DNA from: Malus domestica
Taxonomy: Eukaryota; Streptophyta; Magnoliopsida; Rosales; Rosaceae
Length of the DNA: 64,000 nt
Direction: 5' to 3'
NCBI RefSeq assembly: GCF_042453785.1
Contig: NC_091674.1
Location: 20,247,001-20,311,000 of the forward strand
Shown here: in pieces, positions 889 through 62,984 of the stretch
Layout: each line of letters starts with the position of its first letter
How positions within the stretch are numbered: position 1 is the first letter of the stretch
Program-made: the position numbers and the translations under genes
The notes under the pieces: generated by a model
Database searches by the model: none
Told to the model about the DNA's origin: nothing
Seen by the model: the letters and a program-made list of their open reading frames with translations, nothing else

Positions 889-1711
889 AAGGTCTTTCTC
901 TCTCTTTCGGTGAGAGTTCTTCTCTCAGACTGAGAATGCTTCTCATCTTCTGTGTGAGTGACCGAAGATACTGATTTCGATCAGCCACCGGCCCTAGCAG
1001 GGCCTGGGTCGGTGGTAGCTCATTCTTTTTCTTCCTTCTTTGTTTTCTTTTGATCCTTTTTCCTCTGCTTCAGCCTGTTTCCGACCGCTCTTTCTCCTTC
1101 CTCTTGCATCGGATCTAACGGCACCTTGGCTTCCATTGGAAATTTCTCAATTCATACCATCTTTTTTCTCTTCCCATGCTGCCTTCCAACATCCATGATT
1201 CTTTTCACCCCATCTTTTACCTACCCCCGTGAATTCTGGCTTCTCTCTATCCCACTATTTCTCAGATCTGCAACCGTGTTTCCTAACCGCGTTTTGCGGC
1301 TTTTCTGGAAGGTGTGTAGAGCATCTGCTCAGGTGGTCACACCACCACCTTCAATCTGTGTGCCTTTTTTGGCACGATTACTTGTGGGATGTTTCTTCCA
1401 CGAGTTTCATTTACATGATGGCTGTGGATTTGGATCTTATGGGATGATGGATGAGGGTGGAATCTTCTTGATTTCCGATTTGGAGGCTTCGTTTGTTTGG
1501 ATTCCAGTGATTGCAAAAGGCGGTCGTGGTTCGTGGTTGGCTGTGTTCTTAGGGTTCTTGTTTTTTTGTTTGTTTTTGCTCAATCTTTGGATTGTGCCTT
1601 TCGTTTTGGGAATCGTTTTGTAGTTCTGGGCTTTATCTGTATTTGAATCCCTGTTTGTAAATGTGTTGCTGTGTTGGTAATGAAAATTTACCTTTGGTAA
1701 AAAAAAAAAAG
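889..1711 (+). mobile_element. Short non-autonomous non-LTR retroelement with poly(A) tail
   Basis: An 823-bp segment ends in 12 adenines (1699-1710) and is flanked by 14-bp direct repeats differing at one position (TACTCCCTTTAACA at 875-888, TACTCACTTTAACA at 1712-1725). That is the signature of target-primed reverse transcription. The 3' end, with TAATGAAAATTTACC just before the A tract, resembles plant L1 LINE tails, and the pyrimidine-rich start resembles a LINE 5' leader. No reverse transcriptase is present. The 165-codon frame at 1126-1623 is hydrophobic and matches nothing known to me. A retroposed non-coding transcript is the alternative. Confidence 0.6.
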
Positions 1712-1862
1712 TACTCACTTTAACAGCCATGATAAACTCTTCATTTGTGAGGATATGAGATTTTTCTACAATGTGAGTTCCCATTAAATTGGTTAAAATT
1801 ATGATTGAGTTATTCTTGTGAAGCTAAAGTCGTTGAATAAACATATTCACCTGTTTATTTGT

Positions 1863-2197
1863 CATATCAGCACATAACAAAAGTTTTGACAAAATTATGG
1901 CGGAGGACCACATTGATTTGAGAAGCCTATTTCTAAGACTACATTGATTGATTTTCAATTTCAAAGATCATCATGATGGTATGGGTCAATTTCAGAGATC
2001 ATTTATGATTAAAAAAAAGAACTTATGGGACCCATTATGTGCCACATCAGCATATTACAGAATTTTTGACAGAATTATGACAGAATGACTACATTGATTT
2101 GAAACACCTATTTTCAGGAATTACATTGATCGATTTTCAATTTCAAAGACCATCTTACTGGTGTGGGTCAATTTCAAGAACCATTTGTGATAAAAAC
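1863..2197. repeat. Diverged tandem duplication, period 180 bp
   Basis: Two copies begin at 1863 and 2043. Both carry the sequence around ACATTGATTTGA, a shared TTTTCAATTTCAAAGA stretch and a GTATGGGTCAATTTC or GTGTGGGTCAATTTC stretch. They have diverged by many substitutions. No coding potential was recognised. Confidence 0.7.
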
Positions 2198-4806: not shown

Positions 4807-5321
4807 TGTTGATGCACAAAATCAGTGAGGACTTTGGTACAACAGAAAGTGTTAAGTTTGTGACCTTCGCTAGATTGCTCCGGTCACTAGTGTGGATAAG
4901 TATGTAAATGGATAGGGACAGGGAAGCAAACACAAGATGTACGTGGTTCACCCAGATTGGCTACGTCCACGGAGTAGAGGAGTTCTCATTAATTGTGAAA
5001 GATTTACACAAGTACATAGGTTCAAGCTCTCCTTTAGTGAGTACTAGTGAATGATTTAGTACAAATGACATTAGGAAATATTGTGAGAGAATGATCTCTA
5101 TTTATAGAAGAGAGTTTCTAGTTTCATTTTGCCATTGACACGTGGTGTGTTGTGATTGGCTTTTGATGTTGACACGTGTCGCGCTATGATTGGCTTCTGA
5201 TGTCGACACATGTCGCGTTGTGATTGACCTCCTGGTTGGAAGGAAACTCTTCTGGGTCCTTGATGGTATAACGTTGACCGGTGCTCAGTAGTTTTGGGAT
5301 TGGTCAAGTATGGTACAAACA
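4807..5321 (-). repeat. 3' LTR of the gag-only element
   Basis: 515 bp; on the minus strand it begins TGTTTGTACC and ends GCATCAACA. Relative to its partner it has an extra segment of about 34 bp in a region of repeated GACACGTGTCGCG-like motifs, probably slippage between short repeats. Confidence 0.9.
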
Positions 5322-5492
5322 GTGCTCCCCTAAGTTTCCGAGTGAGGGAAGCTCCTCGGTTGGGGACTTGCAAGATCCAAGTCATTGAGTAATCACGAAA
5401 CTTCTAAGTACCGAAGTGTGGTATCATTTTCACTTGCTTTATCTGTCTCATATGTAGATGTGGCATATTCTCTAGAAATCTTTCATTTTGCC

Positions 5493-7085
5493 CTAAGATT
5501 GATATGTCTGTTGACTTAGCCAAATATTAAGTAAGGCAGGGGGAGGCACCGCTGCCGTTTGGAAGGTCGAGGTCTTCTCATTTGGTTGGATCTGGCTTCC
5601 ACTCCCTACTTGCTGATAAGGGGTGGTTGTAGGGGGTTTCCCTTGATATGTCCTTGCCTCGACGGAGGCATGGTTGTAAGCATGTGCCATCACCTCAGAG
5701 TAAGTCTTCCAAGTGTTGGCATTGATCATGTACTTGAAGAAACAGTCACGTAGGCCTGTCGTGAAGGCCTTGAGGGCAGTCTTGTCATCTGCCTCAGCGC
5801 AGCGAGATTATTCATGGCTGAAACGACCGGCATACTCTTGTAGTGACTTGTCCGGCTTCTGGCGAATAGTGTACAAGTCATTTGCAGAATGTAAGCGATC
5901 GGTCTGGAAGATGTGTTGAGAGATAAACAGTTTCCTCAGTTCCTCAAATGAGTCTACTGTCTCAGGTGGAAGACAGCAATACCAGTTTAGAGCTCCGCCA
6001 GAGAGGGTGGAGGGGAAGAGAAGACTCAAAGAGGTTAAGGTGTTCAATTGGGTCTTCCCTTCCAGTATAGAGTTGTAAACCAAGCTTTTGTTTTGTCTTT
6101 ACTTGAAGGGGGTGCCCAGGATCCTCCTTGTGAGAGGGCCAGGCCTGGGTTGGTTCCAATCAGGTATCTTAGCCTGACGTTCGGCCTTCAACTTGTTTAC
6201 TTCCTTAAGGAGCTGTAGGACAAGGGGGTCCTGAGTGGAGTCATGTACCACTGGGATTTTCTTTCGTAAGTCTCCATCGCCTCTTGGAAGTAGGAAAGTT
6301 TGAGCAAAGGCGTGTGAATTTTCCTTGGACTCGCTGTACTGACTTCTAGGGCGAGTCTGTTGGAATACCTCAGAGTCACTTGTACCTTCATGTCCCTCTG
6401 AGACCTGTCATTCCTTCCCTAGATTGGCAGATGACCTGGGTCGTAGGAGGGGACCGAGTCTTTCAGAAACCCTTGGGTCATTGACCTTCGAGTATATGTG
6501 GAGGGGATTCTCTCGACGTTGCTTTAGGAAGTCTCAGCAGTCGTGATAAACGGCTTTCGATCCTTCCAACCCTTCTGCAAGGAGGTGTCTTCCTCCACTT
6601 CTCATATTTCAGGTCGAAGCAGCTGGGTTGAGAGATGTCTCATGTTGATCAATGTTTTGATGATTAGCTCACTCTTCATCAGGGATACCCATGTCGAAGA
6701 AAGGTAACCCTCCGTGTTGGAAGACACCCAGATGATGGTTGATGTCCACAGGGGCAACAAGCTCGCGTGTTTGAGTATGCCTAGTTTCGTGGAGTGTCTC
6801 AAATAGCTTTTCATACTGCTCCTGGAGGACCTCATTCTTCATTGCTATCTTGTTGTTCTGAGCTTCTAGCTCATCGACTTTAGCTTGAAGAGCAACCCTA
6901 TTTCCTTCTTTCTTTTGTTGCTTTGCACTAGGTGCAAGAGGGGTGTCATTCTGTGTGCTGTGGCTTCCTTCGCTCCTCATGTTGGAGAGGGATGCCTGGT
7001 CAAAAGAGAGTGTACGAATGGTGGAAATCAGCTTGACAAAGCTGAAGAGAGTGGGAATAAGTGTCGTTCCCACAGACGGTGCCAA
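5493..7085 (-). pseudogene. Broken gag gene of the gag-only LTR element
   Basis: Minus-strand frames together resemble a plant Ty3-type gag. An N-terminal part (7085-6669) begins right after the primer-binding site and has a coiled-coil-like stretch rich in E, Q, K and L. The conserved Retrotrans_gag region (6083-5808) includes GALNWYCCLPPET and a SLQEYAGRFSHE stretch. A further part (5729-5493) resembles the downstream YSEVMAHAYNHA segment. The pieces lie in different frames, so frameshifts and stops break the gene. No zinc knuckle or pol domain follows. Confidence 0.75.
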
Positions 7086-7086
7086 A
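7067..7086 (-). other. Primer-binding site of the gag-only element
   Basis: Read on the minus strand this is TTTGGCACCGTCTGTGGGAA, directly after the LTR. Elements A and B carry nearly the same site (TTTGGCGCCGTCTGTGGG), which links the three as relatives. Confidence 0.75.
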
Positions 7087-7567
7087 TGTTGATGCCCAAA
7101 ATCAGTGAGGACTTTGGTACAACAGAAAGTGTTAAGTTTGTGACCTTCGCTAGATTGCTCCGGTCACTAGTGTGGATAAGTATGTAAATGGATAGGGACA
7201 GGGAAGCAAACACAAGATGTACGTGGTTCACTCAGATTGGCTATGTCCACGGAGTAGAGGAGTTCTCATTAATTGTGAAAGGTTTACACAAGTACATAGG
7301 TTCAAGCTCTCCTTTAGTGAGTACTAGTGAATGATTTAGTACAAATGACATTAGGAAATATTGTGAGAGAATGATCTCTATTTATAGAAGAGAGTTTCTA
7401 GTTTCATTCTGACATTGACACGTGTCGTGTTGTGATTGGCTTCTGATGTTGACATGTGTCGCGCTATGATTGGCTTCCTGGTTGGAGGGAAACTCTATTG
7501 GGTCCTTGACGGTATAACGGTGACCGGTGCTCAGTAGTTTAGGGATTGGTCAAGTATGGTACAAACA
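7087..7567 (-). repeat. 5' LTR of the gag-only element
   Basis: 481 bp, TG..CA borders, highly similar to 4807-5321 apart from a gap of about 34 bp and scattered substitutions. It contains a TATTTATAG TATA-like site that could serve as the promoter. Confidence 0.9.
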
Positions 7568-37617: not shown

Positions 37618-37790
37618 ATGGCTGCAATTCCATCCCTCCACAGCAACAATTCTCATCATAACCTCCTCCCCATTTTTAAATCTTCCATCCTTCCGTATTC
37701 ACCTTCCTCACCTTCCTCAGTTGCAGAAGATCATGATTCCCTACAGCTGCCCAATCACCATCCCCCACTCAACAGCTGCCCCTCAGGTAC
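37618..37790 (+). pseudogene. Unidentified exon-like fragment
   Basis: An open stretch from ATG 37618 ends in CCTCAG followed by GTACTCC, like a first exon and donor. It is rich in His, Ser and Pro, follows a CAC microsatellite (about 37590-37613), and matches no protein I know. Its 3' part is inside the 296-bp repeat that recurs at 39169-39464, where the ATG is missing. Confidence 0.3.
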
Positions 37791-38036
37791 TCCAAATCTT
37801 TCACCTCATTTTATCACAAACCCACCAATTTTAACTTTTATTTCTTCCACTACCTCATGTAATGACACTACTCTCTTCTCGCACCATCCCATGGCTCACA
37901 ACTTCCGGATTCCTCGCACAAGAATCTCTCCTAAAAAAGGAAAAACTTTTCTTTTCATAGTAGCTAACATATTTTGGATGTGGTTTATATAAATGAGATT
38001 AATACTTTTACCACTTTGAGGTGAGAACATCACAAC
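37741..38036. repeat. 296-bp direct repeat, left copy
   Basis: Nearly identical, with only a few substitutions, to 39169-39464. The two copies bracket the hAT fragment 38037-39168. Confidence 0.92.
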
Positions 38037-39168
38037 CAAGGAAGAAAATATCGGTAATATCGGAAATATCGGTAGTCCGAAAACACGGAAATATCAATGG
38101 AAATATCGGGATAATATCGATATCGATAAAAATTACATGGAAACCACAGAAATTGTAAGAAAAACTTGGAAATTTTTATTGAAACTTTGCAGGATGTTTA
38201 TTTAGTCAATTATCTATTAGTTTATCACAAAAAAATGGAAGTAAATGCATTGCATGATGGATTTAACATTATCAAGTTGATTATATAGCGAGCTGACAAA
38301 CATTGTGAGTGTAGAAAACATGTAGTAATTAATGAAAGAAGTCTAAACACACCATAATCATTTATATATAATGAATTAGTACAATATTTTACACTTTATA
38401 CATTGCATGGTAAGATACATGAGTGACTTAGTACCACATAGAGTTCCTGTGAGGTTCAAAATTTTCACTATCTTCATCATCTCTATGTGTAGAGTGAGTG
38501 TATTGTGAAGAGTAGTTATCAAATGATAAATCCCCAAAATAGTTTTGCATGTAATTGTTAACATGCCACCCATATGGATCCGAGATTGGTTGACGTTGTC
38601 TATAAGCAAAATCATTTGAAGATTGAGTCTCGGATTGTTTCCATGAGTCGCTCGATTCCATCCCAACAGGAATAGGATATGAATGGTAGGGAAATGGTTG
38701 GTTATGAGTATTACCATAGTTACTACTTCCCACTCCAACAGAGTCCGAAGTTCTAGATAACGAGTCATCTTCTTGACTTGAGAAAATCCCCTTGCCTCTT
38801 TCTCTGCGAGTATAGTCCTTCCCTATGGCACCAATTCCTGGTCCTGCCCGCCTACTGCCATGGTCATCATCCTGTGTTGCATGCGTGAAGTTTGCCTCAC
38901 CAGTGAAGGGGCTCATAAATTCGGGAGGTGGTCCATAATAGTTTCCATATCCACCACCACTACCTCCAGCTCCACTACCTCCAGCTCCACTATGTCCTTC
39001 ATCATTCCCACCTCTGGTGGTAGGTAAGTCTCCTGATCTTGTACTAAAGCTATCATTAGTATCAGCACGATGTTGTGGCTGTGTAGGATTGGAAGAAGGT
39101 GGAATTCCAATGTTTCTTGGTCTTGGGCGCAAAAGTTCTTCCAAAGAGTCAGCGCTGCTAGATCCCAC
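38037..39168 (-). mobile_element. Partial hAT element, 3' half
   Basis: A minus-strand copy of the 3' end of the hAT element at 29207-34465. It runs from the ATATCGG-rich terminus (38040-38135) through the non-coding tail to the last part of the transposase. The frame 39168-38428 is open and encodes the glycine-rich C-terminal tail (GAGGSGGGYGNYYGPPP) ending at the same stop. The 5' half, with finger and catalytic region, is absent; the break coincides with the start of the right 296-bp repeat. Confidence 0.85.
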
Positions 39169-39464
39169 CTACAGCTGCCCAATCACCATCCCCCACTCAA
39201 CAGCTGCCCCTCAGGTACTCCAAATCTTTCACCTCATTTTATCACAAACCCACCAGTTTTAACTTTTATTTCTTCCACTACCTCATGTAATGACACTACT
39301 CTCTTCTCTCACCATCCCATGGCTCACAACTTCCGGATTCCTCGCACAAGAATCTCTCCTAAAAAAGGAAAAACTTTTTTTTTCATAGTAGCTAACATAT
39401 TTTGGATGTGGTTTATATAAATGAGATTAATACTTTTACCACTTTGAGGTGAGAACATCACAAC
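39169..39464. repeat. 296-bp direct repeat, right copy
   Basis: Same length as 37741-38036, beginning CTACAGCTGCCC and ending GAACATCACAAC. The sequence after it differs from what follows the left copy. Confidence 0.92.
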
Positions 39465-50841: not shown

Positions 50842-53628
50842 TTTTGTATCAAAATTCGATTAAAAACTACAAATCGCGATCTGGGTTTTTGGGAACACTG
50901 AAAAAATCGATCTGGGTAATTGAAAGATTAGAATTTTATGCAGTATGCATGGAGATTCAGAAGACTGCGTAGATAGAAAAACAGGGGAGGTGAGAAGATG
51001 TGAGGGGAGAAGTGTGGAGTGGATTGCTAAATAAAGGGGATAATTTATTTACTATTGGGATCGTAAGAGGAGGAAATTTCTGAGAGTTAAAGGGGTTTGA
51101 AGATTGCGTGTTGATTTGTCAAAGGCAGACATATACAAATATTTTTTAATTAACTTTTTCGAAACGAAATTGGAAGAAAATCACAAAATAACTTTTTATT
51201 TTCGTGAGATTATTGAGTTTGAACTAAAAGGTTTGGGTGATGATGTTAGGTGATGACAGCATAAACGCGTTGAGAAGTGGGAGGTGATGTGGCAGATGGA
51301 GAGGAGGAGAGAGAAAGTGAGGAGTGAGAGTGGAGCGGGGTTGGATTTTGTCGCGGTTTCTAGAAGGTGTAGGAGGTCCGGTGGAATTTGGGAGAGTTCA
51401 TACTAGTGAAGTTGTGTTCATTGCTTGGGAGCGAAGACTTGGACAAAATGGAAAATAGACACGGAGGACGCGTAATAGTGTGCGTATACATCAAATGTAT
51501 GACTTGGCCTTGCGGTTTACACGTCTAAATCAAGACTCTACACGTGAAGGGTTTCATTTGGAGCTAAGATATGGTGGATTGTCATCTGGTGACGGATTGA
51601 GAATTGGTGATGGATTGAGAATTCTAACATTGAATGGTTTTAATCGAGGTACTCTAAATGCTAGTTGGGTATCGGACTAAGGCCTAGGGCCTATGCCTCT
51701 AGACTCTCAACATGGTTTAGGCAGGGTTAACGGACTAGACAGGTTTAAGTAAATTTATTATGACAAATAAATAATTGTCTATTTGCCTTAAAAAATAACT
51801 ATATTTGTATAATTGGTTTATCATTACATGTCACATACAAAAATATTAGAAATTTTGTTTTAGTGCTTCAGTGAATTTGATGACATGAGATGAAAGCTTA
51901 AGTGGTCATTAGTTTGCAGTACCTTACGAAATATTTTTCAGATGTATGAATTTATAGTAATTTTAAAAATAAAAATAAAGGTGTTCTCTTTGTTCCTCTT
52001 CATTGGAACATGAAAGAGAAAGTCCTTCATTGGAACCATGGTCCAAGAACAACAAAGTCATGGTGGTATTCTTTATGTTCCTCTTCGTCTAAAATTAGAT
52101 CTTTCTTTTTGGTTCAAAACTTATGTTACACTTCATTGTGATCTTCCCTCTTCCACCACCTGCCCAAATTGTTGGGTGGTCCTCGGAGGTCTTCACACGC
52201 TTCTTTGGACGTTCAAGTGGTCCTAGGACCACCCAAGTCCATGAATAGAATCGCCCCGGTCGTCATCTTACCATATGGTTACTATGTGCATTATACATCT
52301 TAAAAAATTTATGGTATTTTGGAGTATAATATTTTTTTAACGCTTTTAGCGATTCAATTTTTAGTAAAAAAATATAAAAATAAAGATTTAACAGTTTTGA
52401 AAGTCCGAAATATCTCCTACTTCAGATCACTAGAGTTTTTTTTTTTTTTTTTTTTTATACTTTTACTAATGAATAACATTATTGTTCATTAACATTAGAA
52501 CGAAAGTGAATTTACTCCCTTTTTCTGTCTTCGGTTAGTATTTGTCTAATAATTATGTTTGATTGACATAACACTAAGGTTTGAAAAAAAAAAAGATTAA
52601 AAATTTGATGGGCCAACTAATTGTAATGATCCTCGTCACTTCATACGAGCCTTTATTTAGCAACCGAATTTTGTTGCGTTATTATTATTTTTTTTCTAAC
52701 ATTCAGACAAAGATCAATTAAAACAGCGATTTAAAAAAAATCTCAGGATTCGCTTATAAGTACTATTAAAATGTTTAAAAACTATTTTTGTGAAAATATT
52801 TTTTGAACCAATCTTTAATAAAAATGTAAGTGAATCTTAAAAGAATCATATAACTATTACTTATTGCAGAAAACACTTAAAGTACTTTTGAACTCAAAAA
52901 TATTTTCTTTAAAATCTTTCAATCATTTTAAAAGTACTTTTAAACGAGCATTTAGTAGTATTCCAATCCATTTCTCTTTTGTTTCTCTTCCATGTTTTGT
53001 GGAATGTGTTGAACCATTTTTACGTGCCTTTCTTTCAAATATCAATTAATTAGCAAAATATTTTCACCATTGTTTTGTACCATTTAAGGGCCCGCTCTAT
53101 TTTATTTTTGAGTTTTTGGTTTCCGCAATAAGATTAGACAATCTAGCACTAAAGAAAATACCCCTCAGACAAAAGGGTTTGGGCGGATCAAATAAGGTTT
53201 TGTCGCCTAATGTTTTACCTGACAAAAATTCGTCGGCCAGTTTTAGAACAAAGTCGTCACTAAATGTCTGCCTGACGAATATTAATACTCTGTCAAACAA
53301 ATATTGTTTGCCTGATGATAATTTTGTTGAGCCAAGTGTGATGACCAACTTGACACGACAAATATAAACTTGCCCAATGATAGCATTTGGTCACTAAAAC
53401 TCATTATTAAGCTAGAATAGTATCATAAATAACAAAAATTGTACAATTTGCCCAACGATTTTTTTTCCACTATTTCATCTGGCAAAGTTGTATTTTTAGG
53501 AAATAAAAAAAAATTACTCGACAAAAGAGTCGTGGGCAAGGAATTAAAAAAAAATAAATAAAAAATACAAACACATGCTTGACGAAGATACTGGTCTGGC
53601 AAATTTTTTAATTAATTAGTTTTAATTA
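50842..53628. other. NRP promoter side and AT-rich intergenic DNA
   Basis: No further gene. GA-rich DNA at 51240-51340 may belong to the NRP promoter. From about 53100 to 53600 short motifs such as CCTGACGAA, CCTGACAAA and GCCTGATGA recur, like sub-terminal repeats of a DNA transposon, but no termini were found. Confidence 0.4.
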
Positions 53629-54008
53629 TGTTTATACCATATTTAGGGCCTCCGTATTTAGACCTCGTATAAATACTCGGGGGACTCAAATGTAATTATG
53701 CAATAAGGGAAGGGGCAAATATGTAATAAGTGAAGAGTCCTTATTCTATAAAAGGACTCCTCATCCTCACAATTAGGGGGAGGCCAATTCCTAGGCCTGA
53801 GATCCCCTCTCTCACCCTCAGAAGCCTCATCATATCCCCTAAGCTCTAAGCTCTCTCTCCCTCTTCCACATAGAAATATAATACAATCAGTGTGGACGTA
53901 GCCCAAACCTTGGGGTGAACCACGATACATCTTGTGTTATTTACATTTCATGCAGATTCACGGTCGGATTTACGTTGTACCAAGACCATCCGGTTTTGTG
54001 CATCAACA
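53629..54008 (+). repeat. 5' LTR of element A
   Basis: 380 bp, TGTTTATACC ... GCATCAACA. The probable TATA box TATAAAA is at 53747-53753. Confidence 0.95.
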
Positions 54009-54028
54009 TTTGGCGCCGTCTGTGGGAA
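54009..54028 (+). other. Primer-binding site of element A
   Basis: TTTGGCGCCGTCTGTGGGAA directly after the LTR, as in many plant Gypsy-type elements and in element B. I did not assign the matching tRNA. Confidence 0.8.
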
Positions 54029-54258
54029 TCGACACGAAAAGCTATGTCGATTCTCTCTCAATTTTTCACACTCCACGGTGAATCTGCAAAATACACACAA
54101 AAACCCAGAAACTCAAAAGTCTCTCGCTCTCTCTCTGAGGAAATAAAGAAAAGCATTCTCTCTCTAAGAGGCGGTTCCAGTATTGCTTCCTTCTCCCGTT
54201 GTCGGTTTGAAGGATTGAGGGATGAAGAGATTAAAAAGAAACAATACTTAATAGAAAA

Positions 54259-54381
54259 ATGAGCAGCGGGGATGGTGATTCGATGGAAGTGGAGTACATA
54301 TGGAGACACCACAGGCACGGACCCAGAAAAAACCAGGGGACATCGGCTCTGGTCAGGCACATCAAAGCCCATATGCATCTC
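54259..54381 (+). pseudogene. Captured start of a PYL-type ABA receptor gene
   Basis: From ATG 54259 the frame contains EYIWRHHRHGPRKNQGTSAL and then VRHIKAHMHLV. This resembles the N-terminus of PYL8/PYL9-type abscisic acid receptors, where a RHH-H-P--NQC-SALVKHIKAP-HLVWS pattern occurs. It ends at the point corresponding to HLVW; the ligand pocket and gate loops are absent, so no receptor could be made. It begins at the host Met. Confidence 0.65.
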
Positions 54382-54538
54382 GTAAGCTCTCTCTCTCCTC
54401 ATCTCGGCGGAAATGGTGACTTGATAAACGACGCCAGAGCGGCCCATTCGATGACGTTGTAAAGAACTTCGCGCCAAGTCGAGAATCGACAGGTCGAGCT
54501 TCTTCTTCGTCTTAGCTCTCGTCCTCTCCGCTGCTGCC

Positions 54539-54600
54539 ATGCCACACGTCTCCGATTTTCAAATCCACATTAATGGTCAGCAAGCATTCTTTGTCCGTGA
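54539..54600 (+). pseudogene. Captured start of an NPH3/BTB-like gene (tentative)
   Basis: MPHVSDFQIHINGQQAFFVR resembles the beginning of plant NPH3-type BTB proteins, which open with a D-E---NG---FFV pattern. Only about 20 codons remain before the frame runs into the LRR-like segment. The preceding 54382-54538 is of unknown origin. Confidence 0.35.
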
Positions 54601-54822
54601 GGACCTCTCCTACAACAAAATCTCTGGGAAATTTCCAGTTGGTTTCACGAAAAGGGTTCCGGATAACTCCACTATTAATCTCCCTTTCAACAAACTTGAC
54701 CGGATCGATACCGGACTCGCGGCCTCTGTTCAGTCAGAAAACATATCAGTTTGCAGGAAACAATGAGCTCTGTAGGAAGCAATTGAAAACCCTCTGTCCC
54801 ATTCCTTCTACTCTGTCCACTT
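54600..54822 (+). pseudogene. Captured LRR receptor-like kinase segment
   Basis: The translation reads DLSYNKISGKFP, VPDNSTINL, then in a shifted frame LTGSIPDS, YQFAGNNELCRKQLKTLCPI. This is the last leucine-rich repeat and Cys-pair cap of LRR receptor kinases of the At4g34220/At2g23300 type, where NPELCGKPLKNLC-IPS follows the repeats. A frameshift lies near 54690. The membrane segment and kinase are absent. Confidence 0.7.
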
Positions 54823-55009
54823 GAAACATAAGGGATGAATAAGCCATTAAACTAGGGGATGAAGAAGCCAAATCTCTACTGTCCCGAGCTGTTTACTTGT
54901 CCAACATCAGAAGCAGGAGATCTGGTCTTTGCCATTTTCAGGAAGTTCCTCCACAAAAGGTCATCGGCGGGGAATTTCCAGAAGCAGGAGATTTGGTCTT
55001 TGCCGATGG

Positions 55010-55270
55010 GGGCAAACCTGATGGAGAAGCTCAAAGTCGTGGTCGTCGGCCTGGACCGGATCCAATTGGACGGTTTGGCCCCGCCAGAACCCGAGTCGAA
55101 GAGCTTGCCGATGGAGAAATCGGGATTGACAATGAAGGAAACGAAGAAACTGCTGAGGGTGGCCCAGCTGGAAGCCGTGAGATCAAAGCTTCAAGAAGTC
55201 CAGAAAATCTGGGTATTGTATCCGGAGTTTCGTTGGGATCTGCCGGGAAGGTTGCGCGGATCTGCCATGG
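55010..55270 (+). pseudogene. Captured mitochondrial calcium uniporter (MCU) segment
   Basis: The frame has LMEKLKVVVVGLDRIQLDGL, GLTMKETKKLLRVAQLEAV and VLYPEF; after a frameshift ICREGCAD follows. Plant MCU proteins have this order (MEKL---DRIRLDGL, L---E-RKLLR---LE--K-KL, YSEFLRIC-EGC) in the matrix N-terminal domain. The two transmembrane helices and the DIME selectivity motif are missing. A short duplicated stretch (GAAGCAGGAGATCTGGTCTT at 54909 and 54982) precedes it. Confidence 0.65.
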
Positions 55271-55343
55271 ATCCACCAACTATCAGACTAGGAACCTAGG
55301 GTTAGGGTTTTGCGCGCTCAAGGTTCAAGTTCTAGCTGCAACA

Positions 55344-55430
55344 ATGGCCAGGTGCAGAAGCCGAAGCAGAAGCTACAGCCCTCGTCGGCGCAGTCGGACT
55401 CCGTCTTGCGGACGCAAGCAGCACTCTGCC
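55344..55430 (+). pseudogene. Captured start of an SR splicing factor gene
   Basis: From ATG 55344 the frame reads MARCRSRSRSYSPRRRSRTP and continues basic, like the arginine/serine-rich N-terminus of SC35-like (SCL28-type) SR proteins. The RNA-recognition motif is absent. The following 55430-55680 is GC-richer than the element around it and may be more captured sequence of unknown origin. Confidence 0.55.
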
Positions 55431-55949
55431 ATTCTCTCACTGCCGGTCACTCTCACGCTCACCGGAAAGTACGATCTCACCATCACAGACCCTTTTCTGA
55501 AAGGAACAGCTGGTTTGATGGTCCGCGACAAATGTCTCTGGCGAGGTCTCGGTACTCACCTTCAAAGACAACAGAAGCGCGACGAGCTCCGGGGAGCCGC
55601 GCTGGCGAGAGGACAACTCTTGCTGCTAGTGGCCCTGAAAGCTGCTTTTTGACTTTCCAGAAGATGCTGTAAAGACAAGTCATGCCCCCGCCACTTGCAA
55701 TTTGCAAAGTAAAGCAAAGTAAAGAGAACTTCACTTTACTTTTGTCTGCCATCTGCAAAGGCTAATGCACTTGGACCTCAGCAAGAGAATAATAAATGCA
55801 GTGCGGTGGAAAAGAGAAAAAATAAAAGCAGAAAGCAAAAGAGAAAGCAAAAGCAAGGAATAAACATTCTACCAGAATGATGTAATTTATTATCTTTCGG
55901 AGACATATGTATAAACCCCATCAGTGGGTAATATGTATAAACCCATCAG

Positions 55950-55954
<5 letters not shown>

Positions 55955-55984
<30 letters not shown>
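55955..55984. repeat. Poly(A) run inside element A
   Basis: About 28 consecutive adenines between AGAGGGT and GGAAAAGCCC. Element B has the matching run (poly(T) on the plus strand, about 60259-60283) at the same place. Confidence 0.95.
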
Positions 55985-55986
<2 letters not shown>

Positions 55987-56094
55987 AAAAGCCCAAAACA
56001 AATGGGCTGACATGTTGTGGAAGGCGAAGACCCATAAGCCCAAAATAGCACCAACTAGGTGATCAAAAGTACGCCCAGTACTCCAAATTATACA

Positions 56095-56430
56095 TGAGCA
56101 TTACTCATGTCATTCATACATAAACATTCATGACCATCATACATAAACATTCATGACCATCATTCATAACAACATCCATGACCATCACTCATGTCAACAT
56201 TCATGAGCATCACTCGTGACAACATCCATGAGCATCATTCATGTTAATCAACATAAACATTCATGAGCCTCATTCATGTCAATCAACATAAACATTCATG
56301 AGCATCATTCATGTCAATCAACATAAACATTCATGAGCATCACTCATGTCAATCAGCCTCAAAAGCTTCATTTACAGAGCTCCAGCTTCAAAGCTTCACT
56401 TGCAAAGCTTCACTTACAAAGCTTCAGTGC
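56095..56430. repeat. Minisatellites in the shared 3' region of element A
   Basis: Repeated units of about 30-35 bp built from CATTCATGAGCATCA and TCATGTCAATCAACATAAA, followed by an AAAGCTTCA-type repeat (56366-56425). Element B has both arrays inverted at 59637-59960. Confidence 0.9.
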
Positions 56431-56614
56431 AGGGTATACAAATACCACATCCGAACAACCGCCACTTCGGCCCATACATGGATTCAATTTGAAGTCTCCA
56501 GCCAACAGACTCTATTGACCGAAGACTTGGGGGACTACATTATGTACCATATATTGGGCCTCAACTGGGCCTCATAAAAAATACTTGGGGGACTTAACCC
56601 ATTACTTATGTATT

Positions 56615-56845
56615 GATGAGCGAGCCCTTATTCTATAAAAGGGACTTCCTCACTTTCATTAGAGAGCACCCATCATTTATGTACTGAGGAGCGAGCCCTT
56701 ATTCTATAAAAGGGACTCCCTCACCACCATTAGAGAGCATCGCCGCCTACTGAGCAACCGCCTCGCCGCGATCATCAACTCTAGCCCATCATTTATGTAT
56801 TGAGGAGCGAGCCCTTATTCTATAAAAGGGACTCACTCACCTTCA
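56615..56845 (+). repeat. Three repeats of the LTR core-promoter module (element A)
   Basis: GAGCGAGCCCTTATTCTATAAAAGGGACT occurs, in pieces, three times with TATAAAA at 56634, 56705 and 56821. Each resembles the LTR region around 53740-53765 (TCCTTATTCTATAAAAGGAC). Confidence 0.85.
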
Positions 56846-57039
56846 ATGCCACAAGCTGAGCCAACCAAAGCAACATAAGCCACAAGCCGAGCAGCCTCGC
56901 AACGTGTGCTACTTCTAGTTGAGCGTCATTTCAGATTGAGCACTGCCTCATATCGAGCATCAGTTCAAGACAGTATCTAGTTACTTCGGCCCACACATGG
57001 ACTGAATTTCAAGTCTCCAGCCAAAAGACTCTCTTGACT

Positions 57040-57057
57040 GAAGACTTGGGGGACTAC
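57040..57057 (+). other. Polypurine tract of element A
   Basis: GAAGACTTGGGGGACTAC lies immediately before the 3' LTR. The same sequence in inverse lies after 58923 in element B. Confidence 0.75.
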
Positions 57058-57437
57058 TGTTTATACCATATTTAGGGCCTCCGTATTTAGACCTCGTATA
57101 AATACTCGGGGGACTCAAATGTAATTATGCAATAAGGGAAGGGGCAAATATGTAATAAGTGAAGAGTCCTTATTCTATAAAAGGACTCCTCATCCTCACA
57201 ATTAGGGGGAGGCCAATTCCTAGGCCTGAGATCCCCTCTCTCACCCTCAGAAGCCTCATCATATCCCCTAAGCTCTAAGCTCTCTCTCCCTCTTCCACAT
57301 AGAAATATAATACAATCAGTGTGGACGTAGCCCAAACCTTGGGGTGAACCACGATAACTCTTGTGTTATTTACATTTCATGCAGATTCACGGTCGGATTT
57401 ACGTTGTACCAAGACCATCCGGTTTTGTGCATCAACA
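57058..57437 (+). repeat. 3' LTR of element A
   Basis: 380 bp. By direct reading it differs from the 5' LTR only at two adjacent bases (GATAACTCTT versus GATACATCTT). Confidence 0.95.
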
Positions 57438-57567
57438 AATTATATTAATCTAAAAAGAAATCACAATATAAAAAATTATTTAATTTATATTAATACTGAA
57501 ATATGAGTACAATTATACTGAACCTGAATAAAAAAATTATTATTGCTGGAACACGGTCTCTAAGTAC

Positions 57568-57790: not shown

Positions 57791-58316
57791 CTAAGTACTC
57801 TATCTCCAACCATTGTTGTCTGGAAGACGTCCCCTTGCAGGCTGAGAGCTAGATGAGGAAAATCACCCAACCATAAGCTTACCGGTTAGTCATATTTGCA
57901 CTCGATTTCTAGTGTAAATAAAAAAGGGAAAATTAGAATATCCTATGGTTTTTCTATATCATTTAGATTAAACATATGTGCCTTTTTAAAATTTAATTAA
58001 GGGTAAAAGATTGTTTACTACCCTCATGTTTCGTGATTTTTAACATTTAGTACATCAAGTTTTTTTCGTCTCAGATTCATACTTAAAGTGTAAATTTTGG
58101 GACAGTTTCATACATCCGTTAGTCAAACTGTTAAATCTGCCGTTAATTGTGACGTGGTGCCCATGTGGTCAATGATTGGGCGTCACGTGTCATCCACGTT
58201 TTTTTTTCTTTCTTCTTCCTTCTTCTTCCTCCGGCTGCAACTTTTTTTTTTCTTCCTCATTCTCCTTCTTCCTTCCCCTTCTTCCCCTTCTTCCTCATTC
58301 CTCCAAATCTGGGGAA

Positions 58317-58380: not shown

Positions 58381-58612
58381 AGATTTAGTTTTTTTTTTCT
58401 TCTTCTTTTTTCTTCTTCCTCCTCCTTCTTTCTCCGACTGCAACTTTTTTTTTTCTTCTTCTGCTTCTTCCTCTGACTGCAACTTTTTTTTCTTCCTCCT
58501 TGTTCTCCTTCTTCCTTCCTCCTTCTTCCTTCCCTTTCTTCTCCTTCTTCCTTCTTCTTCTTTCTCCTTCTTCTTCTTCTTCTTCTTCATCTTCCTAAAA
58601 AAAAGAAAAAAT

Positions 58613-58923
58613 TGTTGATGCACAAAACCGGAGGTCTTGGAACAATGTAAATCCGACCGTGAATCTGCATGTAATGTAAATAACACAAGATTGGGCTACG
58701 TCCACACTGATTGTATTTATTTGAGAGAGAGAGAGCTCTGAGAGTGAGAACGTTGAGAGAGGGTGAGAGGGCCTAAGAATTGGCCTCCCCTAATTGTGAG
58801 GGTGATGGGTCCTTTTATAGAATAAGGACTCCTCACTTATTACATATTTTCCTCTTCCTTTATCACATAATTACATTTAAGTCTCTCGAGTATTTATACG
58901 AGGCCTTAAATATGGTATAAACA
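58613..58923 (-). repeat. 3' LTR of element B
   Basis: 311 bp. Relative to the other LTR it lacks about 24 bp (the GTATCGTGGTTCACCCC stretch) and about 12 bp near the end, so B is older than A. Confidence 0.92.
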
Positions 58924-59142
58924 GTAGTCCCCCAAGTCTTCAGTCAAGAGAGTCTTTTGGCTGGAGACTTGAAATTCAGTCCATGTGTGAGCCAAAGTAA
59001 CTAGATGCTGTCTTGAACTGATGCTCGATATGAGGCAGTGCTCAATCTGAAATGACGCTCAACTAGAAGTAGCACGCTGCGAGGCTGCTCGGCTCGTGGC
59101 TTATGTTGCCTTGGTTGGCTCAGCTTGCGGCGTTTGAAGGTG

Positions 59143-59450
59143 AGGGAATCCCTTTTATAGAATAGGGGCTCGCTCCTCAATACATGAATAATGGGCTAGA
59201 GTTAATGCTCTCTAATGATGGTGAAGGAGTCCCTTTTATAGAATAATGGCTCGTTCCTCAATACATAAATGATGGGCTAGAGTTGATGCTCGTGGCGAGG
59301 CGGTTGCTCAGTAGGCGGCGATGCTCTCTAATGGTGGTGAGGGAGTCCCTTTTATAAAATAAGGGCTCGCTCCTCAATACATAAATAATGGGTGCTCTCT
59401 AATGAAAGTGAGGGAGTCCCTTTTATAGAATAATGGCTCGCTCCTCAATA
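59143..59450 (-). repeat. Four repeats of the LTR core-promoter module (element B)
   Basis: The inverse of the module in element A occurs four times, with TATAAAA-type sites on the minus strand at about 59159, 59240, 59356 and 59427. The LTR itself has the same motif at about 58819. Confidence 0.85.
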
Positions 59451-59636
59451 CATAAGTAATGGGCTAAGTCCCCTAAGTATTTTTCATGAGGCCTAATTGG
59501 GGCCCAATATATGATACATAATGTAGTCCCCCAAGTCTTCGGTCGTCTGTTGGCTGAAGACTTCAAATTGAATCTATATATGGGCCAAAATGGCGCTTGT
59601 TCGGAGGCGGTATTTGTATACCCTGCACTGAAGCCG

Positions 59637-59960
59637 TGTAAGTAAAGCTTTGTAAGTGAAGTTTTGTAAGTGAAGTTTTGAAGATCGAACTCTGTAAATG
59701 AAGCTTTTGAAGCTAGAGCTTTTGTAAATGAAGCTTTTGAAGTTGTAGCTCTGTAAATGAAGCTTTTGAAGCTAGAGCTTTTGTAAACGAAGCTTTTGAA
59801 GCTGATTGACATGAGTGATGCTCATGAATGTTTGATTGACATGAGTGATGCTCATGGATGTTGACATGAGTGATGCTCATGAATGTTTATTTATGATTGA
59901 TATGAGTAATGCTCATGAATGTTTATGTATGATTGACATGAGTAATACTCATGTATAATA
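59637..59960. repeat. Minisatellites in element B
   Basis: GAAGCTTTTGAAG/TGTAAATGAAG units (59637-59812) and ATTGACATGAGTGATGCTCA units (59805-59960), the inverse of those in element A. Confidence 0.9.
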
Positions 59961-60635
59961 TGAAGTACTGGACGTACTTTTGATCACCTAGTTAGTGGTA
60001 ATATTGGCAGGTTGCCGAATATTTGTGGAGTACTGGGCGTATTTTTTATCACCTGGTTGGTGGTAATAGCGGCAGGTTGCCGAATAATTGTGAAGTACTA
60101 GGCGTACTTTTGATCACCTGGTTGGTGGTAATAGCGGCAGGTTGTCGAATAATTGTGGAGTACTGAGCGTACTTTTGATCGCCTGGTTAGAGCTATTTTG
60201 GGCTCATGGGCATTCGCCCTCTATACAACATTCCAGCCTTATTTATTTTGGGCTTTGCCCCTTTTTTTTTTTTTTTTTTTTTTATACCCTCTGATAGGGT
60301 TTGTACAGATATCTCCGAAAGATACGAAAAATAAATTACATCATTCAAAAATAAGGAAAGTAAATCACATCATTCTGGTAAGTTGTTTATTCCTTGCTTT
60401 TGCTTTTCTCTTTTCCCCAGCACATTTCTTTTGCTTTTGTGTTTTCTCTGCAACTTTGAAACTTGCCTCGCTTGAACCGACGAATAGGGGTGACAGCTTG
60501 CACCTCCCTTTTTTGCTTTTGTCATTCTCTTTTTTCTTTCTCAGAAAATAATTTCACATGGCATTACCCTTTTGCTTTCTCCCATCCATGACACCGCTAG
60601 CACAGCTTTCTCCTTTTGCTTTCTTTAATTTTTCA

Positions 60636-60974
60636 ATTAACCACTTTCTGCTTTTGCTTCTTCTTCGGCTTTTCTCCATCTCCATGAACCACTAGAATAT
60701 CGATTAAGCGGTGCAGAAACAGCAGCAAGCTAGCAACATTGCAGTTCTGCCTTGACGCCATCATCAAGTAGATACTGTTCTGTTGTATGAACATGTAGCT
60801 GACACCATTGTCGTACACCACTGGATCTTAGGATTACAGATTGCCTTCTTTTTCGATGAACTTGGTGAAGAAGCGTTTGGCCTGAACAGCAGAGACATCG
60901 TCATGGTAGTCGCATCAAATCAAAACTCTTCCTTTGATGTCGAGCAGAAAAAGCACCGAGGCGGCACCGGCCAT
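60636..60974 (-). pseudogene. Captured start of an AP-1 complex mu subunit gene
   Basis: From the ATG at 60974 (minus) the frame reads MAGAASVLFLLDIKGRVLI, a stop, CDYHDDVSAVQAKRFFTKFI, two more stops, then VVYDNGVSYMFIQQNSIYLM and MASRQNCNVASLLLFLHRLI, almost identical to the N-terminal longin-like part of plant AP-1 mu (AP1M) proteins. About 105 codons are kept without any intron-like gap. The rest of the subunit, including the cargo-binding domain, is absent, and the frame runs on into Lys-rich element sequence. AP-1 mu recognises sorting signals in clathrin coats at the trans-Golgi network; this copy is not functional. Confidence 0.88.
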
Positions 60975-60999
60975 CAGACTGAAGATCAAGAGAGTTGAA

Positions 61000-61445
61000 T
61001 CCGACCCAGTTGTCAATACACCCCCCAAAGATTTGAATCTGACCCACTTGTGCTCAGCATGGCGGAATCGGCGGTGAAACTAGAGGCTTGGGGTCCCTGG
61101 CGGAGGAGTCAGCGACTGTACGGAGGAAAGTGACCAAGATGCCAAGGCCCATGTCAATTTGCCTGCAAGCGACTTGGTTGTTGGACGTGGTGGGCAAGAA
61201 GAAATAAAGGGGGTCAAGGAAAAAGCCGGCGATGCATATGATAAAGAAGATGTGGTTCCATTAGGTCACAGGTGCAAGAAGATCATCAGCATGAGTATCC
61301 TTGAAGTCGCTGCGTTTTGCCTTGCAAATCGGAGTCCGATAAGCTGGAGAGAGAAGAAGAAGAGTCGGTCCTCGGCCTGGGATTGGGTTTGAATTCCAAA
61401 GACTGGGTTCGAATTTGAAGCGTCCTCCATGGTTTTGAAGCTTCA
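61000..61445 (-). other. Unidentified cargo-like segment of element B
   Basis: This part is GC-richer than the element's repeats and absent from element A, so it is probably also acquired. The frames (for example SSSSLSSLSDSDLQGKTQRL on the minus strand) match no family I recognise. Confidence 0.35.
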
Positions 61446-61668
61446 AATTTCAAAACCCTCGATCTTGACGAATGCTGAGAGACCTCCATCTTTTAGGCCC
61501 TGTGTTGTAGTGTTGTAATAGTATGATGGTGACAGGTGTAGTAGCTAGATTCACGATGCTGCGGTGTTGTTTAGTTTTTCCAGATTTTGCAGATTCATGG
61601 TGGAGGTATGAAAAATTAAGATAGAACCGACATAATTTTTTGTGTCGTTTCCCACAGACGGCGCCAAA

Positions 61669-62014
61669 TGTTGATGCACAAAACCGAAGGTCTTGGAACA
61701 ACGTAAATCCGACCGTGAATCTGCATGTAATGTAAATAACACAAGATGTATCGTGGTTCACCCCAAGGTTTGGGCTACATCCACACTGATTGTATTTATT
61801 TGAGGGAGAGACAGCTCTGAGAGTGAGAGCGTTGAGAGAAGGTGAGAGGGCCAAGGAATTGGCCTCCCGTAATTGTGAGGGTGATGGGTCTTTTATAGAA
61901 TAAGGACTCCTCACTTATTACATATTTGCCCCTTCCTTTATCACATAATTACATTTAAGTCCCTCGAGTATTTATACGAGGTCTAAATATGAGGTCCTAA
62001 ATATGGTATAAACA
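61669..62014 (-). repeat. 5' LTR of element B
   Basis: 346 bp, beginning TGTTTATACC on the minus strand and similar along its length to the LTRs of element A. Confidence 0.92.
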
Positions 62015-62984
62015 AAAATAAATAAATAAAACCTTCATCTTCCCCAGATTCGGAGGAAGAAGAAGAAGAAGAAGGAAGAAGGTGGAAGAAAAAAAAAGAG
62101 TTGCAGTCGGAGGAAGAAGAAGAAGAAGAAGGAAGAAGAAGGAGGAAGAAGAAAAAATAAAAAATAAAAAAAAATAAAACCGAATTTGGGCAGATTCGAG
62201 AGGAAGAAGAAGAAAAAACAAACTTCCCCAGATTTAGAGGAAGAAGAAAAAGAAGGAGAAGGAGAAGGAGAAGGAAGAATAAGGAAGAAAGGGAATAAAG
62301 GGAAGAAAGGGAAGGAAGGAGGAAGGAAGAAGGAGAAGGAGAAAGAAAAAAAAAGTTGCAGTCAGAGGAAGAAGAAGAAGAAGAAGAAGAAGGAAGAAGA
62401 AAGAAAAAAAAAACGTGGATAACACGTGGCGCCCAGTCATTGTCCACATGGGCGCCACGTCACAATTAACGGCAGATTTAACAGTTTGACTAACGAATGT
62501 ATGAAACTGTCCTAAAATTTACACTTTAGGTATGAATCTGAGACGAAAAAAACTTGATGTACTAAATGTTGAAAACCACGAAACATGAGGGTAGTAAACA
62601 GTCTTTTACCCTTTAATTAAAGTGCTTTGATCAATAGTCACCTCTATTTTTTAAAATTAAAATAATTTTTGAATTTATCCTTTTATCTGCATGATGCATT
62701 TTTTTTATTTAGTGGAGATATTAGTAATTAAACTATATTTTCTCTTCTTCCAAATATGTTTTTTTTTTGTTATGCAAACATTTGATATTATTTCTTTTTC
62801 CAAATGGTTTTTTCTTTTTCAAATAGTTGGTGATCAACATAAAAGCTCGTGTAATTTTTTCAATTTGTTTGTGAAATTATATTTTTTTTTGCTGTTTTTT
62901 TAAGTATAGTTGTTGATGAATTATTATTATGTACAATACATTATGTATATATTATTTGCGGATACGTTTGAATTTACAAAAATC

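Follow-up and report, generated by a model that had tools for sequence, protein, structure and literature searches.

How an LTR element that encodes no genes of its own came to hold, one after another, pieces of several unrelated host genes is the question raised by this locus. The window, the whole 64,000-nucleotide stretch of apple DNA that was analysed, contains the element in question (element A) together with two further LTR elements, B and C (Table 1). A has direct LTRs, TG...CA ends and a 5-bp target duplication, as an LTR retrotransposon should. Its LTRs differ by 2 substitutions over 380 sites, which corresponds to an insertion age of roughly 0.2 to 0.7 million years under two substitution rates assumed for plants. 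The putative primer-binding site, TGGCGCCGTC, is taken by us to resemble the end of tRNA-Asp. A Pfam scan of eight frames of A detected neither a gag nor a pol domain, the sole match at E <= 1 being a weak one to Malate_DH (0.066). The earlier description of this element as one without gag or pol, made from the letters alone, is therefore borne out in these frames, and on the same ground the region was rejected as an original retrotransposon reading frame.

Table 1. Coordinates of the elements and gene pieces in the window, and extents of the LRR receptor-kinase gene in different elements (donor positions)
Feature	Position	Strand	Details
Element A	53629-57437	+	3.8 kb; contig C14 of the apple genome
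Left target duplication of A	53624-53628	.	AATTA; right copy 57438-57442
5' LTR of A	53629-54008	+	TGTT...AACA; 380 bp
Leader common to the family	54009-54092	+	about 84 nt
Putative primer-binding site TGGCGCCGTC	54011-54020	+	conserved; directly after 5' LTR
PYL ABA-receptor piece	54127-54405	+	donors C7 88% (main part), C1 83%
Layout of PYL piece	54127-54405	+	upstream sequence; start codon 54259; exon 1 to 54381; intron 1 54382-54405 (24 nt)
Proposed NPH3/BTB piece	54406-54602 (about)	+	not confirmed
LRR receptor-kinase piece	54603-54820	+	donors C5 91%, C10 88%
Mitochondrial calcium uniporter (MCU) piece	54908-55262	+	donors C15 93%, C2 84%
SR splicing-factor piece (presumed name)	55279-55419	+	donors C13 91%, C16 90%; upstream sequence and first codons
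Extra piece of A	55472-55679	+	96% identical in C2 element L040; partly in L037
Stretches of A between mapped pieces	54406-54602, 54821-54907, 55420-55471	+	no assignment
Shared 3' region	55813-57057	+	about 1.2 kb; tandem repeats
3' LTR of A	57058-57437	+	380 bp
Element B	58610-62014	-	LTR, leader and 3' region as in A; ATTTT on either side
Interior of B	60450-61583	-	differs from interior of A
Thiolase-like piece of B	61268-61459	-	one donor intron missing exactly at GT-AG
Cyclic-nucleotide-gated channel (CNGC) piece of B	61104-61269	-	93% to C6
AP-1 mu piece of B	60699-61032	-	93% to C6; one donor intron missing exactly at GT-AG
Element C	4807-7567	-	short LTR element; 1.8-kb interior; Retrotrans_gag match
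LRR gene extent in L026	758-1705		donor positions
LRR gene extent in L022	1173-1750		donor positions
LRR gene extent in L018, L021	1193-1990		donor positions
LRR gene extent in L051	two ends of 1193-1990		donor positions
LRR gene extent in A	1501-1717		donor positions

The interior of A was searched against the same genome and 40 of 82 candidates were scored. Of the five host-gene pieces named in the sequence-only reading, four (PYL, LRR, MCU and SR) have donors in this genome, with identities of 83-93% over eight loci and of 88-93% for the best donor of each piece; the E-values of these best donors, 1e-47 to 7e-136, exclude chance for all four. The fifth piece, NPH3/BTB, did not hold up, since the stretch at about 54406-54602 had neither a Pfam match at E <= 1 nor a donor among the 40 scored of the 82 candidates from the search with A's interior. 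Within 1.5 kb on either side of the eight donor loci no further match of at least 50 nt to A was found, so within that range these loci are not family elements. It had also been noticed that the pieces are incomplete and contain frame changes, and comparison with the donors agrees: frames are open at the donor loci where those of A are broken. The region was rejected as a single contiguous known gene because its pieces map to unlinked loci. The names of the pieces have different sources. PYL follows from a match to a PDB sequence (E 2e-7) and a Pfam match on donor exon 2, LRR from a Pfam match on the donor, and MCU from named homologues, together with a weak PDB match (E 0.12); the SR donor exon gave no Pfam match, and the piece presumably derives from an SR splicing-factor gene.

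The PYL piece runs past the splice site of exon 1 into intron 1, donor exon 2 lying about 0.7 kb further on. The sequence-only reading had expected intact donors of high identity and no introns; donors are present for four pieces, but the second expectation fails at this point, and absence of introns is not claimed for every piece. Because 24 nt of intron are kept, one or more of the templates must have been DNA, or RNA that was not spliced. Two donor introns, both in B, are absent exactly at their GT-AG borders, one in the AP-1 mu piece and one in the thiolase-like piece, whose donor gene we take to encode peroxisomal 3-ketoacyl-CoA thiolase; at least two templates were therefore spliced. The remaining mapped pieces each lie within one exon and so are uninformative on splicing.

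For six of the seven donor genes, the piece in at least one family element reaches 16 to 215 nt beyond the start codon on its upstream side, a count over the genes with mapped donors, which are not a random sample. In the seventh, CNGC, the piece of B is internal, and a chimeric locus on C11 (L063) reaches upstream of the start codon. Such a reach to the 5' end would be expected if minus-strand synthesis jumps onto an mRNA and continues to its 5' end, and then goes back to the leader. The overlap at a junction, taken from one junction, was 2 nt. L063 (C11:39380300-39380750) is 83% identical to the CNGC-AP-1 mu passage of B, with a more complete CNGC 5' end, and judged by this likeness it is probably an older relative of the CNGC/AP-1 mu mosaic of B. 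A further observation is that B is flanked by an inverted repeat of 216 nt, 94% complementary, at 57992-58207 and 62405-62620.

An LTR query of the genome gave 6,739 candidates at first look and 40 of these were scored, and 20 further members were picked by the likeness of their LTR and leader to those of A, the interiors being ignored in the choice. LTR and leader are present in all 20. LTRs across the family are 361-398 bp long, begin with TG and end with CA, and in the 17 members in which both were measured they differ by 0-11 substitutions; L044 has no second LTR in the fetched stretch, and one LTR of L050 and of L057 was partly matched. A perfect 5-bp target duplication flanks 14 of these 17 members, the others being L042, L049, which is a tandem array, and L051, whose 3' LTR is cut. 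The array (C9:14749900-14759890) consists of one family element with an LTR spacing of 3,289 bp, and the LTR query showed four LTR matches at that spacing, three of them within the fetched stretch.

Nineteen interiors could be delimited, each of 1.4-2.4 kb and mostly unrelated to each other; in L042 the shared 3' region is reduced to its final part. The interior of A is matched in one of the 19, that of L040, over 208 nt at 96%. L045 and L054 have most of their interior in common (98%). When A and B are included, 28 pairs among the 21 interiors share sequence at E <= 1e-8; all 33 rows of this similarity are on the same strand, and part of it lies at the edges adjoining the shared regions.

To describe the content of the 19 interiors, the 150 longest ORFs per strand were compared with Pfam at E <= 0.01. 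For 15 of the 19 interiors there were host-gene matches that could be assigned. They include MutS domain V (L048), NMP1 (L042), SHMT (L041), a methyltransferase (L043) and a mitochondrial carrier (L057). In L045, EF-hands and DUF1677 lie within one frame of 289 aa, and L055 has a single frame with an RGP piece, a weak match to DUF1645 and a piece of F-box type that comes closest to tubby-like F-box proteins; LRR remnants in L051 were seen at the DNA level. Weaker assignments are those of L054, made via its likeness to L045, and of L040, L049, L053 and L056, which are below Pfam's own cut-off. L039, L047 and L050 have no host-gene assignment of their own. No retroelement domain is present among the 25 of 36 sense families listed.

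Host genes lie mainly in the sense orientation of the elements. On the sense strand 36 Pfam families were matched and on the antisense strand four, the latter representing two genes (LRR and HMG-CoA reductase). The 25 of 36 sense families listed correspond, in the author's grouping, to 17 genes, and 17 against 2 gives a p of about 7e-4, a count biased by the longer ORFs of the sense strand, which favour sense matches (ORFs of at least 55 aa number 190 sense and 153 antisense). All seven pieces mapped to donors, four in A and three in B, are in sense.

The same genes have been taken up more than once and cut to different lengths. Five different extents of the LRR gene occur in six elements, A and five others (Table 1). 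The MCU piece of A is 92.8% identical to the C15 locus and 84.1% to the C2 locus; for that of a C17 element the values are 85.1% (C15) and 91.7% (C2). Being closest to different paralogues, the two pieces indicate that MCU was captured at least twice. In a C16 element the MCU piece begins 16 nt ahead of the start codon and includes a tandem duplication, of which A retains a remnant of 24 nt (54910-54933 repeats 54981-55004, 23 of 24 identical). The SR piece begins further upstream in L024 than in A. From the LRR extents, the MCU paralogues and the SR starts it follows that pieces have been captured repeatedly, trimmed and exchanged.

The finished mosaic of A has itself been inserted again, as it occurs at two sites with different target duplications, AATTA on C14 and TAATT at 43.8 Mb of C5. 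At the latter site the copies at 43.77 and 43.79 Mb were rejected as two insertions, because their upstream flanks are 99.8% identical and they have the same target duplication; by sequence they represent one insertion and a segmental duplication. A third copy, at 32.7 Mb of C5, resembles neither of these sites in its flanks. The 5' LTR of this copy comes from element C's family (80-85% over about 513 nt) and is joined exactly to the leader of A, and its 3' LTR is of A's family; the 5-mers at its ends differ (CCCAC and CACTC). With hybrid LTRs and unmatched end 5-mers it was rejected as a third plain insertion, and its sequence shows an exchange between the families of A and element C. Recombination after insertion accounts for the hybrid no less well than template switching does. 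Elsewhere, at L027 (C9:14179119-14182327), an LTR of the element-C type in opposite orientation adjoins a truncated A-type LTR and leader, an arrangement that looks like a nested insertion.

The reading preferred here, with a probability of roughly 0.78, is that A and B belong to a young non-autonomous LTR family whose reverse transcription time and again switches to host RNAs packaged alongside, and from one family RNA to another. The sequence-only reading had likewise proposed a non-autonomous LTR family and the repeated collection of cDNA pieces by it, and the differing interiors, the sense bias and the introns absent from B lend it support. The retroviral-like mechanism of capture is read from the anatomy of the elements. 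RNA of the element and host mRNAs would be packaged together in particles made by a partner. During minus-strand synthesis the reverse transcriptase would leave the element RNA for a host mRNA, copy it towards its 5' end, jump next to another RNA and finally return to the leader. In the members sampled, the slot between leader and 3' region is filled mostly with different host-gene pieces. Jumps between family RNAs would trim and shuffle pieces captured earlier. As regards the partner, element C has LTR ends and a primer site similar to those of A, and may be taken as a lead to an autonomous partner of the family, at most. Template switching fits the sense strand, the splicing, the 5' ends, the place of the pieces inside the element and the mosaics. 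Counting against capture from spliced mRNA are the intron sequence in the PYL piece and the two antisense genes.

These same two observations, the intron and the antisense gene matches from two interior ORFs, speak for capture at the level of DNA, as filler in break repair or through gene conversion or nested insertion, a route that has been proposed for Pack-MULEs, followed by retrotransposition; so do the swapped 5' LTR and unmatched flanks of the copy at 32.7 Mb of C5, which imply that DNA-level exchange also occurs. As the origin of the pieces this is nevertheless unlikely, because two introns are exactly missing from B, host-gene matches are in excess on the sense strand and pieces extend upstream of start codons. 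The last of these is also at odds with read-through transduction of single neighbouring genes, with mosaics arising later by recombination among such elements, since frequent starts upstream of start codons are disfavoured by downstream read-through. Transduction at the 3' end is a route described in plants (PMC13317346), and the exchange of pieces between elements would suit it; however, the pieces come from unlinked loci and sit after the leader and ahead of the 3' region, not at the 3' end, which makes this account very unlikely. It is still harder to credit that the chimeras are new genes with a function, retained because of their products, the LTR ends being incidental. The chimera of A does match P0001, a Malus domestica gene model with a protein that reads like the outcome of splicing at the PYL donor site in the captured piece, and the 289-aa frame of L045 has both DUF1677 and EF-hand matches; yet the models P0001, P0058 and P0109 are predictions that cut related sequence differently, and the pieces of A contain frame changes and stops. 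Carried one step further, template switching would make this parasitic family a standing RNA collector, with a slot that lacks any sequence of its own and is filled anew from host mRNAs, and thereby a continuing exon-shuffling machine; the chances of this extension being correct are about even.

Among described classes of elements, A differs from autonomous LTR elements by the absence of gag and pol from the eight frames scanned, and the same absence was noted among the 25 of 36 listed families of the other members. With a length of 3.8 kb and LTRs of 380 bp, A is outside the size of a TRIM. In LARDs the LTRs are large, as is the non-coding interior, which is conserved; here the LTRs are 361-398 bp and the interiors differ among members. 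Pack-MULEs are characterised by terminal inverted repeats and a 9-bp target duplication, and the elements studied here have direct LTRs and 5-bp target duplications. What A does have in common with maize Bs1 is the presence of several unrelated host-gene segments inside LTR ends.

Bs1 is an LTR element with incomplete segments of three unrelated host genes (PMC13317346) and is described as having captured exons only (PMC4717578). It resembles the apple elements in having host-gene segments in an LTR element; however, Bs1 is one element, whereas the apple family was sampled in 19 members with mostly different sets of pieces, exchange between them and one piece that keeps intron sequence. The soybean TRIM GmaRetroS15 contains intron-free exon fragments from three host genes (PMC4717578), and it shares with the apple family LTR ends, a 5-bp target duplication, the lack of coding genes of its own and re-transposition after capture. 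Gene-carrying TRIMs are reported there as 1.2-1.4 kb long, with gene fragments in 30 elements of 7 subfamilies out of 289 (PMC4717578), in contrast to the 3.8 kb of A and to the gene pieces found in most sampled members of one apple family. Chimeras of Veju and BARE-2 in Triticeae have been attributed to abnormal switching of the template among RNAs packaged together (PMC1950507, PMC13317346); as far as those sources go, they fuse retrotransposon or unknown sequence, whereas the apple family takes mainly host mRNAs. Pack-MULEs are, in the passages covered, DNA transposons with host exons and introns and possibly several fragments per element (PMC4717578, PMC13317346). They are likewise mobile carriers of gene fragments, but the apple family has LTRs and, in B, spliced pieces. 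In Rosaceae, the TGTT and AACA subfamilies, with ends TG-TT or AA-CA, have been tied to the Copia Ale lineage in the part of PMC5659011 covered, and like the apple elements they are Rosaceae LTR elements, some of them without coding genes. Membership in them was rejected, as the apple LTRs begin with TG and end with CA, and the shared letters are a coincidence of naming. No apple LTR family of the present kind was encountered in the titles and beginnings of abstracts searched, which covered few subscription papers. Single gene-carrying elements such as Bs1 and GmaRetroS15 are known; a family-wide habit seems to be new.

Gene capture by plant LTR elements has so far consisted of isolated cases, and here the mosaics are young and their donors are still in the genome. 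The family therefore offers many natural experiments on which RNAs are taken, from which end, spliced or not, and with what junctions. If the template-switching reading is true, it would be an RNA-collector family, in the genome of a crop tree, whose new lineages are fresh multi-gene chimeras that are later shuffled between members. It is also a recent source of chimeric reading frames, and annotators should be warned that LTR chimeras match Malus gene models. The chimeric frames of A are held, cut differently, by three Malus domestica hypothetical proteins (P0001, P0058 and P0109). The window also contains a 297-bp direct repeat, 99% identical, at 37740-38036 and 39168-39464, around approximately 1.1 kb of other sequence.
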